From positions 3,658,001 through 3,722,000 of the forward strand of contig NZ_CP017279.1 in the NCBI RefSeq assembly GCF_001750725.1: a stretch of DNA of 64,000 bases. Reading direction: 5' to 3'. Below are positions 34,188 through 52,107 of this stretch, piece by piece. Position numbers and translations under genes: made by a program. The stretch comes from Enterobacter ludwigii (GTDB lineage: Bacteria; Pseudomonadota; Gammaproteobacteria; Enterobacterales; Enterobacteriaceae). Below the pieces are notes generated by a model. It searched no databases. It was given only the letters and a program-made list of their open reading frames with translations, and had not been told where the DNA came from. How positions within the stretch are numbered: the first letter of the stretch is position 1; the number at the start of each line of letters is the position of its first letter.

Positions 34188-34453
34188 GTCAATTCCTTAT
34201 TAAAAACTCGTAAAGACTATACATTGAAAATGGCATTCAGCCATTTTTATTTTCCCAACAGGACCTCTGGACGGCTAAAATATAATTTTCTTATAACGAT
34301 TCCTTGTGCCTTAATGAATCCCATCAGTTCGATGCACTAATGAAAGTTAGATATTTTCCGGGCAGTTCTCATTACCAGGCGCTATCGTTGATATCCCCTC
34401 TTTTTGAGTCCATACGTTTACTATCAATACAATGATGCATAACTGGAGTCAGT

Positions 34454-34672
34454 ATGACCTATAGAATTACAGGCCTGGTAAAATGGTTTAACGAAGACAA
34501 AGGTTTTGGCTTCATCTCTCCTCTTGATGGCAGCAAAGATATCGTTGTCCATTTTCCTAAGCTTAATGTCGACAACTTTAAAACTTTATTTGAAGGACAG
34601 AAAGTTGAATTCGCCATTCAGATCGGAGACAAAGGTCCTGCTGCTGCAAACGTAATACTTTGCGATAAATAA
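34454..34672 (+). CDS. CspA-family cold-shock protein
   Basis: This 72-residue protein is a near-canonical Csp[21 protein letters not shown] (RNP1 intact) and [10 protein letters not shown] (RNP2 with V for the first F), ending [17 protein letters not shown] proteins melt RNA structure and act as RNA chaperones in cold or stationary phase. TGGAGTC precedes the ATG. A 266-bp leader separates it from the divergent CSD gene; long leaders are usual for cold-inducible csp genes, though I see no clear cold box. Confidence 0.88.
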
Positions 34673-34940
34673 ATCAATGTGGGTTTGCGATAACGATGAA
34701 GGATTATCCCTGAGTAGACAGACCCATAACTTAAATCAGTGGAAAATCGTTTATTCTTAATATCTGATTAGCATACTTTTCACAATTATGAGTGCGCTGA
34801 CCGATGTTATGAAGTGCAGGACTAATGCATAAAAATTTTAAAAGCACAAGCTAACCGCAAGTTAAATAAGAAGTGCGTAATGGCTTTGACCTTAATGGCA
34901 TCTGCCAGTTAACACCCACAAGAGAACAGGGTAATAGAAT

Positions 34941-49355: not shown

Positions 49356-49757
49356 CTTATTTGTCCATATCTTTGCCGGAGGAGAGGTAGGGTATCTTCC
49401 GTGCATTCATTTTTTATTCGTTAAAAATCCTGGCACAAAAATGAAATACATCAATAAATCGAAAGGTTAATAAGATGGCGAAAGTTGAGGCTATTAAAAA
49501 GATAGCAATGATTTATTCCGCTGGGCATGCTTTATAAGCCGAAGGGTGGATGCGGTAATGTGTCTGGCAGGGCATGATTAAGCAAAATGGCGAAATGACT
49601 GTTGTCTTATTGTCGGTTTGAATAGCTTTTTTATCGCGGCATTTTTCATATACTTCGTGTTGTGGTGAATCCCCCTGTGCGGTGGGGCATAATTTATAGG
49701 TTAACGTCATTATGCGGGCTTTGCTCACCGGGAGGCACCCGGCACCACACTGTTCTA
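49356..49757. other. Gap without a convincing gene
   Basis: A 106-codon minus-strand frame (49513-49833) covers much of it but has low-complexity composition and overlaps the membrane protein gene. I see no ribosome site and treat it as spurious. Confidence 0.4.
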
Positions 49758-50096
49758 TTAAACGTTTATAAAAGAAGGTAGATATAACATCGCCACGACC
49801 CATATGAATAAGCCAGGAATTTTCAAAGGCCACGGCTCAAGGATAGCTATGCAAGCAAATGCACCTACCACGAGCAGAGGGCCTGATAACACGTTCAGGA
49901 TCCCACCTAAAGTAAGTATCTTTCCTGGCAGTAATCTATTGAGTACTAATGAAATAATGTAAGCACTCATAGTAATGATGGAAAAGGCGATTGTTTTATC
50001 ATGCCATGTGTCGAATTCAATCCAGCAAAGACTATAGGCAAAAATTAAATATGAGCAAAGAAGCAGGTTTATAATTGGGATGGTAAACTTACTCAT
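49758..50096 (-). CDS. Small multi-pass membrane protein
   Basis: This 112-residue protein has about four hydrophobic segments: IPIINLLLCSYLIFAYSLCW, then IAFSIITMSAYIISLVL, ILNVLSGPLLVVGAFACIAI and IPGLFIWVVAMLYLPSF, with short polar links. AGGGTC precedes the ATG. It follows the 55-residue ORF at 50137-50304 on the same strand and probably shares its transcript. No family is recognised. Confidence 0.55.
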   Translation of the reverse strand: MSKFTIPIINLLLCSYLIFAYSLCWIEFDTWHDKTIAFSIITMSAYIISLVLNRLLPGKILTLGGILNVLSGPLLVVGAFACIAILEPWPLKIPGLFIWVVAMLYLPSFINV

Positions 50097-50477: not shown

Positions 50478-51482
50478 TTAACTAAACACCGGCACCCCCA
50501 GCCCAACCTTCACCTCCTTCAGCGTCCCCTGCGTCACTCCCTGCGCCCGTTCGGTCCCGCGCTTCAGCATCGCCATCAACTCCCCTTTATCCTGCATGTA
50601 CATCGCCCTCCGTTCCCGCATCGGTGCAATCAGCTCCTGCAGGCACGCCTCCAGCTCGTTCTTGCATGCCCGGTCACCCAGTCCGCCCACCTGATAATGC
50701 GCCTTCATCGCTGCCACTTTCGCTTTGTCCGGATGAAACGCGTCGAGGTAGGTAAACACCACGTTTCCCTCAATCTGCCCCGGGTCGCTCACCTTCAGGT
50801 GGTTCGGGTCGGTGTACATGGCACTGACCGCACGGTGAATCGTCTCTTCACTGGCAGAAAGGTGCAGGGTGTTGCCCAGCGATTTCGACATCTTGGCGCT
50901 GCCGTCGATGCCGGGCAGGCGACCGGTGTCGCTGAGCATCGCTTTGCAGTGGCGCAGCACCGGGGCAGGCAAGAGGCTGTTCATCTTGTGCACAATCTCA
51001 TTGGTCTGCTCAATCATCGGCAGCTGGTCGTCGCCGACGGGGACGCACTCGGCTTTGAACGCAGTGATGTCCGCCGCCTGGCTGATGGGGTAGGCCATAA
51101 AACCGACCGGCAGCGAGCGGGCAAAGCCTTTCTGCGCAATCTCGTTTTTCACCGTCGGGTTACGCTCGACGCGGGCGACGGTGACGATATTCATATACAA
51201 CATTGTCAGCTCGGCGAGAGCGGGCAGGGCGGACTGCAGGCAGAGTGTCGTCAGGTTCGGGTCGATGCCGGCGGCGAGGTAGTCGGCGAGCACTTCAGGG
51301 ATGTTGTCGCGGATTTTTTGCGGGTTGCTGCCGTTGTCGGTCAGCCCCTGCAGGTCGGCAATCAAGACATACTGGTTATGCGTCTGCTGTAGCGCCACGC
51401 GCTGGCGCAGCGAACCGACGAAATGGCCCAGGTGCAGCGGGCCGGTTGGGCGGTCGCCGGTGAGGATGGTTTGAACGTTCAT
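50478..51482 (-). CDS. trpS: Tryptophanyl-tRNA synthetase, auxiliary type
   Basis: This 334-residue class I synthetase has GDRPTGPLHLGHFVGSLR near residue 9 (HIGH-type motif), an aminoacyl-adenylate site QAADITAFKAECVPVGDDQ, and GIDGSAKMSKSLGN near 192 (KMSKS). It charges tRNA-Trp in the cytoplasm. The sequence looks distinct from the housekeeping trpS, which in enterobacteria lies in the dam-gph-trpS cluster, and no such neighbours occur here; it is therefore probably a second copy. AAGGAG precedes the ATG. It is preceded by a Trp-Trp leader peptide and alternative hairpins, so expression should rise when charged tRNA-Trp falls. Confidence 0.92.
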   Translation of the reverse strand: MNVQTILTGDRPTGPLHLGHFVGSLRQRVALQQTHNQYVLIADLQGLTDNGSNPQKIRDNIPEVLADYLAAGIDPNLTTLCLQSALPALAELTMLYMNIVTVARVERNPTVKNEIAQKGFARSLPVGFMAYPISQAADITAFKAECVPVGDDQLPMIEQTNEIVHKMNSLLPAPVLRHCKAMLSDTGRLPGIDGSAKMSKSLGNTLHLSASEETIHRAVSAMYTDPNHLKVSDPGQIEGNVVFTYLDAFHPDKAKVAAMKAHYQVGGLGDRACKNELEACLQELIAPMRERRAMYMQDKGELMAMLKRGTERAQGVTQGTLKEVKVGLGVPVFS

Positions 51483-51530
51483 AAAGACTCCTTAATGTGC
51501 AATTGCCGAAAGGGGTCTTAGAAATGTGAA

Positions 51531-51599
51531 AGCCGCCTTTCGGCGGCTATCTGAAAATGGGGAAAACTACTCCGTGCCGCCTTTAAGAAGGCAGCCACC
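51531..51599 (-). promoter_or_regulatory. Trp attenuator ahead of the auxiliary trpS
   Basis: Read on the minus strand, four segments are visible. Segment 1 is GCTGCCTT (51595-51588), just after the Trp codons. Segment 2 is AAGGCGGC (51583-51576). Segment 3 is AGCCGCC (51548-51542) and segment 4 is GGCGGCT (51537-51531), followed by TTCACATTT. Pairing 1:2 is eight base pairs including one G-U; 2:3 pairs GGCGGC with GCCGCC; 3:4 makes a GAAA-capped terminator stem. A ribosome stalled on the tandem Trp codons would mask segment 1 and favour 2:3 read-through. Confidence 0.78.
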
Positions 51600-51636
51600 A
51601 GCGGTTTACGGTGAGCACGGCGTGGTTTATGTTCAT
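51583..51636 (-). CDS. TrpL-like leader peptide of the auxiliary trpS
   Basis: A 17-codon ORF encodes [17 protein letters not shown] with tandem Trp codons at positions 13-14, ending in TAA exactly at the first attenuator hairpin. It lies about 100 nt before the synthetase start. The composition (two adjacent rare-amino-acid codons near the end of a short ORF) is the hallmark of ribosome-mediated attenuation, as in trpL of the trp operon. The ribosome site is weak (GGTAACTTT upstream). Confidence 0.75.
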
Positions 51637-51681
51637 AAAGTTACCGTACCACGTCTGGCGCAAAAAACAAAAGGGCACGTC

Positions 51682-52107
51682 ATGCTGCAATCACTCAACC
51701 ATCTGACCCTCGCGGTCAGCGACCTGCAAAAAAGCGTTACCTTCTGGCACGAGCTGCTGGGGCTGACGCTGCACGCCCGCTGGAATACCGGGGCCTATCT
51801 TACCTGCGGCGATCTGTGGGTCTGCCTGTCGTACGACGAGGCGTGCCAGTATGTGCCGCCGCAGGAGAGCGACTATACCCATTACGCGTTTACCGTTGCG
51901 ACGGAAGATTTTGAACCGTTCTCGCACAAGCTGGAGCAGGCAGGCGTTACCGTCTGGAAGCAGAACAAAAGTGAGGGGGCATCGTTCTATTTTCTCGACC
52001 CGGACGGGCACAAGCTGGAGCTGCACGTGGGCAGCCTCGCCGCGCGGCTGGCGGCGTGCCGGGAGAAACCCTATGCCGGAATGGTGTTCACCTCAGACGA
52101 GGCTTGA
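51682..52107 (+). CDS. fosA: FosA fosfomycin glutathione transferase
   Basis: This 141-residue VOC-fold enzyme begins [20 protein letters not shown]. The metal ligands His7, His in YTHYAFTV (about 64) and Glu in KLELHVGS (about 110) are all present, as are the fosfomycin-binding WNTGAYL and the potassium-loop area ([13 protein letters not shown]). It opens the epoxide of fosfomycin with glutathione, using Mn2+ and K+. AAGGG precedes the ATG. Chromosomal fosA is typical of Enterobacter and Klebsiella. It is divergent from the trpS leader, with only 45 bp between, and its 3' end overlaps the LacI gene by 15 bp. Confidence 0.92.

Follow-up and report, generated by a model that had tools for sequence, protein, structure and literature searches.

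The auxiliary tryptophanyl-tRNA synthetase (TrpRS) gene trpS2 of Enterobacter ludwigii is preceded by a short leader that is likely to be a ribosome-mediated attenuator, one that senses the charging of tRNA-Trp and controls this backup enzyme mainly through its Shine-Dalgarno sequence, from a leader mRNA that is probably itself leaderless. The leader lies in a stretch of 64,000 nucleotides of contig NZ_CP017279.1 (positions 3,658,001 to 3,722,000; assembly GCF_001750725.1), hereafter the window, in which the reference locus spans positions 50478..52107, with trpS2 and the leader on the minus strand and the divergent gene fosA on the plus strand. Conservation of the leader, covariation of its stems and co-occurrence with trpS2 were observed, and from these we infer the stalling of ribosomes, the direction of the response, the start site and a translational output. 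An initial annotation of the locus had described a 17-codon leader with tandem tryptophan (Trp) codons before a second TrpRS gene, and both its coordinates and its stems proved correct: the complementarities 1:2 (GCTGCCTT/AAGGCGGC), 2:3 (GGCGGC/GCCGCC) and 3:4 (AGCCGCC-GAAA-GGCGGCT) exist. That annotation overlooked a further segment, segment 5, and the poor U-run after 3:4 (GGCGGCTTTCACATTTCT).

Our results suggest the following sequence of events (segments as in Table 1). Transcription would begin with the first base of the leader AUG, and the leader would be translated from a leaderless mRNA. With enough Trp-tRNA, the ribosome would reach the leader stop and cover segment 2, hairpin 3:4 would form and segment 5 would pair with segment 6, leaving trpS2 off; an untranslated leader, in which 1:2 forms, would leave it likewise off. 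A ribosome stalled at the Trp codons would instead cover segment 1 and free segment 2, which would disturb 3:4 through 2:3 and perhaps through 2:5 too. The loop and arms of 3:4 would then capture segment 5 (the pairing termed 34:5), the Shine-Dalgarno sequence would be freed and the backup TrpRS made. Termination of transcription may contribute as well in those lineages whose hairpin 3:4 is followed by a U-run.

Conservation and co-occurrence of the leader

The relatives studied were the best 80 of a larger set from a scan of genome contigs, with 62-98% identity to trpS2. A short open reading frame (ORF) with two adjacent Trp codons (WW) lies upstream of trpS2 in 77 of these 80, whereas the background rate of the same loci predicts about 2 short ATG ORFs with WW per 80 stretches of 330 nt; a chance leader is thereby ruled out. 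Superficieibacter (L022) retains a leader with a single Trp codon, and the 2 relatives of the 80 without a leader are both Acinetobacter. Poor conservation of WW or of the stems had been named in the initial annotation as evidence that would count against an attenuator; WW is found at the frequency just given, and the stems covary (see below). The residues before WW are variable, with 70 distinct peptides among the 79 leaders used for the structure tests (the window and 78 loci, the two leaderless Acinetobacter rows having been dropped). These leaders were assigned to 26 groups from record titles and leader similarity, a few of the titles being doubtful (L041 Chryseobacterium, L018 Serratia, L021 Providencia).

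TrpRS genes were counted in 34 genomes, 33 of them from the set of 80 loci and the other that of the window. Two TrpRS scored over the cut-off in 32 of the 34, all of them leader-bearing (one with the single Trp codon), and in the two leaderless Acinetobacter genomes the TrpRS2-type enzyme is the only TrpRS over the cut-off. Because the leader is missing where the TrpRS2 type stands as the only TrpRS over the cut-off, these data are suggestive, from two genomes of one genus, of a leader that serves the auxiliary role of TrpRS2.

We trained a covariance model (R1) on trpS2 leaders, covering the stretch between WW and the trpS2 start codon, and ran it on 295 genomes of the family, a sample that shares some species with the 80 loci and is not independent of them. 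R1 matched 40 of the 295 at E<=0.001, and TrpRS2 is present in 41, all with a WW leader ORF. The two coincide in 39 genomes, where the match lies directly before the gene (a gap of at most 60 bases in 38 of the 39, and of 168 in one) and a WW leader ORF could be read from the DNA in 39/39. Two genomes with TrpRS2 lack an R1 match (G608, G667), the WW leader being present nonetheless; one (G447, L116) has a match before a trpS2 remnant of residues 235-333 only, in which both Trp codons read Arg. Class-wide, R1 matched 7 of 369 genomes; apart from the locus of the window's own genome, 6 genomes (L104-L110) gave 7 weak matches, which we read as ordinary hairpins, none being accompanied by TrpRS2 in tblastn searches. 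In fourteen other genomes of the class sample, with TrpRS genes of 36-69% identity by tblastn (one of them, L140, a partial gene at a contig end), the 330 nt upstream contained no short ORF that has either WW or two Trp codons.

The 155-nt leader RNA has a folding energy of -52.4 kcal/mol and is more stable than 200 dinucleotide shuffles (z -3.9), in line with the check that the initial annotation had proposed. Rfam gave no match to the leader region at gathering score and, at E up to 10 over positions 51380-51760, just four weak matches to unrelated families, which rules out a known Rfam family; in the same scans neither the T-box families nor the RF00513 Trp_leader model matched at the leader.

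Pairings and covariation

Cognate partners were compared with permuted partners by duplex energy (the swap test), using one representative for each of the 26 groups and 20000 permutations; the groups share ancestry, and the figures that follow are not independent probabilities. Cognate preference was strongest for 3:4 (z -10.0, 0/20000), followed by 5:6 (z -8.4, 0/20000), 34:5 (z -6.4, 0/20000), 1:2 (z -3.8, 1/20000) and 2:3 (z -2.2, 361/20000). Compared with dinucleotide shuffles, 34:5 passed the 0.05 level in 24/26 groups, 3:4 in 23/26, 5:6 in 13/26, 2:3 in 8/26 and 1:2 in 6/26. The pairing 2:5 had no cognate preference in the swap test, 14197 of the 20000 permutations being as good, and was rejected as a conserved anti-sequestor, though conserved arms limit that test.

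Two alignments were drawn from the 79 leaders, A1 with 40 Enterobacterales rows and A2 with 34. Jointly, 1:2, 3:4 and 5:6 are paired in 93.8% of the cells of A1, with a covariation score of 0.194 against 0.106 in shuffled alignments (0/500) and both-sided change in 55 cells, where shuffling gives 19.8 (0/500), and the same three pairings are recovered in the RNAalifold consensus. Both-sided change occurs in 3/9 pairs of 3:4 and 4/9 pairs of 5:6, the latter with 86.9% of its cells paired. Within Enterobacterales, 34:5 is 98.1% paired, with 5/9 pairs invariant and a score reached by 3/500 shuffles, and 2:3 is 98.8% paired, with a score reached by 0/500. In all 79 leaders the duplex energies range from -5.9 to -18.9 kcal/mol for 5:6 and from -17.6 to -31.5 kcal/mol for 34:5. 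Covariation, which the initial annotation had put forward as a check, is thus seen for 3:4 in both the swap test and the pair counts, for 1:2 in the swap test only and for 2:3 weakly.

Table 1. Features of the trpS2 locus, in window positions
Feature	Position	Strand	Remarks
trpS2, auxiliary tryptophanyl-tRNA synthetase, 334 aa	50478..51482	-	ATG at 51482
Segment 6 (AAGGAGTCTT), trpS2 Shine-Dalgarno region	51484..51493	-	predicted to be sequestered by segment 5
Segment 5 (AAGACCCCTTTCGGC)	51505..51519	-	partner of 3-loop-4 (GCCGAAAGG, 51544-51536) or of segment 6
Segment 4 (GGCGGCT)	51531..51537	-	hairpin 3:4, GAAA loop 51541-51538; 3:4 swap test
Segment 3 (AGCCGCC)	51542..51548	-	
Segment 2 (AAGGCGGC)	51576..51583	-	shares last base of leader stop
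Leader ORF, 17 codons	51583..51636	-	ATG at 51636; stop TAA
Segment 1 (GCTGCCTT)	51588..51595	-	begins at last base of second Trp codon; 1:2 swap test
Tandem Trp codons TGG TGG, putative sensor	51595..51600	-	first Trp in 25/26 group representatives, second in 26/26
Candidate fosA promoter, inside leader ORF	51605..51633	+	TTTACG 51605-51610, 17 nt, TATGTT 51628-51633; read from sequence
Predicted -10 of leader, TACGGT after TGG (extended -10)	51643..51648	-	6 nt before leader ATG; predicted start at A of ATG
Candidate -35 of leader, TTTGTT	51666..51671	-	17-nt spacer; weak
fosA, FosA/FosA2 family	51682..52107	+	ATG at 51682; divergent neighbour, outside the switch

Output of the switch

The initial annotation saw in these stems the full logic of trpL. 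The window does not bear this out, as a terminator scan found 0 terminator-like sites at 3:4, where the tail reads TTTCACATTTCT, and the part common to 26/26 groups is the Shine-Dalgarno switch; a terminator-like U-run is absent in the window and in 7/26 groups. A lenient rule (hairpin plus T-run), to which we gave more weight than to a terminator formula, was applied with 11 trpL leaders from the same genomes, all over the Rfam cut-off, as controls. It was passed by 2/10 Enterobacter-group leaders, 55/69 leaders outside that group and 11/11 controls, and by 0/14 loci in seven groups (Pluralibacter-like, Moritella, three Photobacterium, Pseudoalteromonas and Marinobacter), whose 34:5 and 5:6 energies lie in the general range. 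Because 5:6 and 34:5 pair in all 79 leaders while the U-run is missing in some lineages, the shared output is probably sequestration of the Shine-Dalgarno sequence, and hence translational, and termination, if any, would be a lineage-specific addition. Opening the Shine-Dalgarno sequence is predicted to cost 6.5 kcal/mol on ribosome-free RNA, 6.6 when a ribosome sits at the stop and 4.7 when it sits at either Trp codon, and this cost falls by >0.3 on going from the stop to a stall at the second Trp codon in 64/79 leaders. This modelled pattern, though small, is that expected of an attenuator.

Several results weigh against this reading. The pairs with both-sided change in 1:2, 3:4 and 5:6 number 7 in A1, which 44/500 shuffles reach, and 1:2 has none within Enterobacterales; 34:5 and 2:3 have one such pair each, a figure reached by 435/500 and 364/500 shuffles, respectively, and pairing 2:3 is weakly supported. 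A strict consensus promoter scan found neither the -10/-35 elements of the leader nor the fosA promoter. The lenient terminator rule is passed by 57/79 hairpins, and outside the window's genus termination may matter more than thought. The change in opening cost is reversed in 11/79 leaders, and at equilibrium the Shine-Dalgarno sequence is predicted to stay mostly closed even with a stalled ribosome. When the RNA is cut before segment 6, stalling lowers 34:5 (mean 5.1 pairs versus 7.5 at the stop), so that folding of the truncated RNA lends no support to a simple stall model at equilibrium; the model therefore requires co-transcriptional kinetics. With the ribosome stalled and the Shine-Dalgarno sequence forced open, 2:5 pairs outnumber 34:5 pairs on average (8.8 versus 5.2), and the open form would be either 34:5 with 2:3, or 2:5. 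Taken together, the folding calculations bear out the stall model only partly.

Were this instead classical trpL-type transcription attenuation, 3:4 would be an intrinsic terminator and 2:3 the antiterminator, and the pairings of segment 5 would be incidental. The geometry of 1:2, 2:3 and 3:4 and the place of the leader stop match trpL, the loci that pass the lenient rule form a majority, 65/79 score >0 by the terminator formula, and examples from Klebsiella, Kluyvera, Rahnella, Cedecea and Aeromonas reach by that formula the range of the 11 trpL controls (36-62). However, the window has no terminator-like site, few Enterobacter-group leaders pass a rule that every trpL control passes, the 14 loci of seven groups that fail it have ordinary 34:5 and 5:6 energies, and the cognate preference of 5:6 and 34:5 exceeds that of 1:2 and 2:3; we regard this explanation as unlikely. 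It is also possible, if on the unlikely side, that termination and Shine-Dalgarno sequestration act together with a balance that varies by lineage. Such a mixed attenuator would account both for the U-rich tails seen in Klebsiella, Kluyvera, Rahnella and Aeromonas and for the presence of 5:6 and 34:5 in 26/26 groups, but the tail TTTCACATTTCT gives it no clear fit to the window's genus.

The initial annotation had further suggested an antibiotic-response locus; on this reading trpS2 and fosA would be jointly controlled through the leader. The distance it gave is right, with 45 bases between the leader ATG and the fosA ATG; the predicted promoters of these divergent genes overlap, and the Gln that occupies the position of E. 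coli His45 in TrpRS2 of the window and of 80/80 relatives makes reduced indolmycin binding plausible. Yet fosA is the divergent neighbour in just 8/81 loci (the window and 7 relatives), with a possible ninth (L003) whose start codon is seemingly altered, the other neighbours are diverse, with a Trp-permease-type gene in 8, and fosfomycin does not target tRNA charging. It is trpS2, not fosA, that the leader accompanies, and joint control seems very improbable. What stands of the annotation is a conserved, covarying and putatively ribosome-mediated Trp-codon attenuator before an auxiliary TrpRS; the full trpL logic and the response locus are not supported. We give least credence to a leader peptide that works in trans as a small protein, with the RNA stems secondary. 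The Trp leader peptide of Sinorhizobium meliloti is described as having trans functions (PMC7298713, excerpt), but here the peptides are poorly conserved beyond WW, as their diversity shows, and the codons after WW make an RNA stem.

An attenuator that acts mainly on the Shine-Dalgarno sequence may, we tentatively suggest, belong to an undescribed family of RNA regulators in Gammaproteobacteria, marked by a leaderless Trp leader ORF, by a segment 5 exchanged between 3-loop-4 and the Shine-Dalgarno sequence and by a place before an auxiliary TrpRS in which the indolmycin-determining His position is Gln; switches built in this way may also respond to other amino acids. A literature search, which covered few subscription papers, found no report of the trpS2 leader element. 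If the switch works as proposed, enterobacteria, Aeromonas and some marine gammaproteobacteria would gain a backup TrpRS that is switched on when tRNA-Trp charging fails, with an output that is translational and not purely terminator-based. Such a switch would agree with the proposal that in Salmonella trpS2 stands in for trpS, could serve to report on Trp-tRNA charging, and predicts that tolerance to TrpRS inhibitors is inducible in trpS2-carrying species.

Start of the leader transcript

In 43/77 relatives an element resembling TGnTAnnnT, with a score >=7, lies exactly 6 nt upstream of the leader AUG, as against 1.2% of 17729 background ATGs. Because this conserved -10 lies 6 nt upstream, transcription would, given normal spacing, start at the leader AUG, and a leaderless leader mRNA is probable. 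In two Salmonella loci (L122 171-332, minus; L016 2668-2828, minus) the Rfam small RNA isrQ lies divergent beside the leader. The first 4 bases of the trpS2 leader are shared with the annotated 5' end of isrQ, which is read from the other strand, and this places the two as divergent from one promoter region.

The trpS2 enzyme

As the initial annotation had it, the gene controlled is a second TrpRS, for another, 27% identical, is encoded elsewhere in the same genome and both score over the TIGR00233 cut-off. The closest solved relatives of TrpRS2 are the TrpRS II chains 2a4m and 1yi8 (E about 1e-110; 1.5e-110 to 2a4m), that is, tryptophanyl-tRNA synthetase II, from an organism that we take to be Deinococcus radiodurans. 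Matches to chains 5v0i and 8i1w, presumably of E. coli TrpRS, are far weaker (E 2.2e-25). By these comparisons the trpS2 product is nearer to TrpRS II than to the housekeeping TrpS of the E. coli type. The Gln at the His45 position was read from an alignment of the window TrpRS2 with 8 relatives and by motif in all 80, and it is present in 2a4m in a printed alignment; the comparison with the Deinococcus enzyme covers the protein itself. In Bacillus the counterpart of E. coli His45, H43, governs indolmycin sensitivity (PMC4899734, excerpt). Tolerance of TrpRS2 to indolmycin through reduced binding is plausible because Gln sits at this position. The position of E. coli TrpRS Gln152 is Pro in the window enzyme and the 8 aligned relatives.

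There are some published observations on this gene in Salmonella. One study lists trpS2 (STM4508) beside trp genes as 2-fold up in biofilm (PMC2805695, excerpt). Another found that Salmonella strains tolerate transposons in trpS, for which its authors propose that trpS2 may stand in (PMC3487940, excerpt). STM4508 is also listed among SPI-2 co-regulated genes (PMC2639726, excerpt).

Comparison with known systems

The trpS2 leader shares with trpL (RF00513 Trp_leader) a leader ORF with tandem Trp codons, segments 1 to 4 with mutually exclusive pairings and a stop codon at segment 2. It differs in controlling a synthetase gene, in segments 5 and 6, which would act on the Shine-Dalgarno sequence, in the weak or missing U-run of the window, in its predicted leaderless start and in the lack of an RF00513 match. 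Streptomyces trpRS1 has reportedly been worked on by Vecchione and Sello, and there the attenuated gene is one of two TrpRS genes in S. coelicolor. Attenuators predicted before trpS genes in Streptomyces are called classical (PMC1262725, excerpt), and would likewise attenuate a TrpRS gene; they are found in Actinobacteria, whereas the switch proposed here acts on the Shine-Dalgarno sequence in Gammaproteobacteria, and the two are likened by description only.

Like the trpS2 leader, the pheST attenuator of gammaproteobacteria controls an aminoacyl-tRNA synthetase operon of enterobacteria (PMC1262725, excerpt). It differs in amino acid (Phe, not Trp), in serving a housekeeping enzyme and in acting through a transcription terminator. 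Hence the claim that no case is established in enterobacteria holds for trpS in the literature searched, but not for synthetase genes at large, since pheST attenuation is in print. In Bacillus subtilis, tRNA-dependent ribosome stalling controls the translation of rtpA (anti-TRAP) (PMC11255114, excerpt). That gene differs in being T-box controlled as well and in encoding a regulator protein. We know of no switch of the 34:5/5:6 type in rtpA. In S. meliloti the 5' end of the trpL RNA is the leader ATG itself (PMC7298713, excerpt), as is predicted for the trpS2 leader. This RNA is likened by start site and differs in belonging to an alphaproteobacterium and in regulating trpE(G) through attenuation of transcription.

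Gene neighbourhood and mobility

In 8 relatives (Klebsiella, Raoultella, Hafnia and Edwardsiella) the upstream tandem neighbour belongs to one cluster of Trp-permease-type proteins. The member from L023 is a tryptophan permease (NCBIfam NF007789, 795.6 bits), and the other 7 were assigned by clustering. On the E. coli plasmid NZ_CP182337.1 (L124 3001-3078), fosA lies beside 78 bp that match 51636-51559 of the trpS2 leader region, with an annotated IS1A transposase gene adjoining; this arrangement fits a fosA promoter located within the leader ORF. Two other E. coli plasmids (L125, L123) carry trpS2 with a WW leader, one copy being Klebsiella-like and near IS26 and the other Enterobacter-like and near IS3000, where it adjoins an incomplete VOC-family gene in the position of fosA. 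Two Salmonella 'plasmid' matches (H5, H6) are small linear records, which we took for chromosome pieces and set aside. Among 90 plasmid records that match TrpRS at E<=1e-60, 23 are from Staphylococcus.

The Pseudoalteromonas luteoviolacea relative (L079) was considered as a gene of an indolmycin cluster and rejected, as its two listed neighbours do not fit; one begins like what we take to be a glutamate synthase. A TrpRS gene lies inside the indolmycin cluster of other strains (PMC5069768, excerpt). Two genomes (G528, G630; L114, L115), whose trpS2 leader equals that of Hafnia alvei L040, have a second R1 match before a sodium-dependent transporter gene, where a Leu-rich short ORF (VQAVNLQLSLLLLII, GTG start) precedes the transporter and the energies are -23 to -24 kcal/mol for 34:5 and -12.1 kcal/mol for 5:6. 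This element is possibly the same switch sensing another amino acid. Elsewhere in the window, Rfam matches the cspA thermoregulator (34323-34729, plus strand) and the small RNA STnc100 (49630-49787, plus strand).

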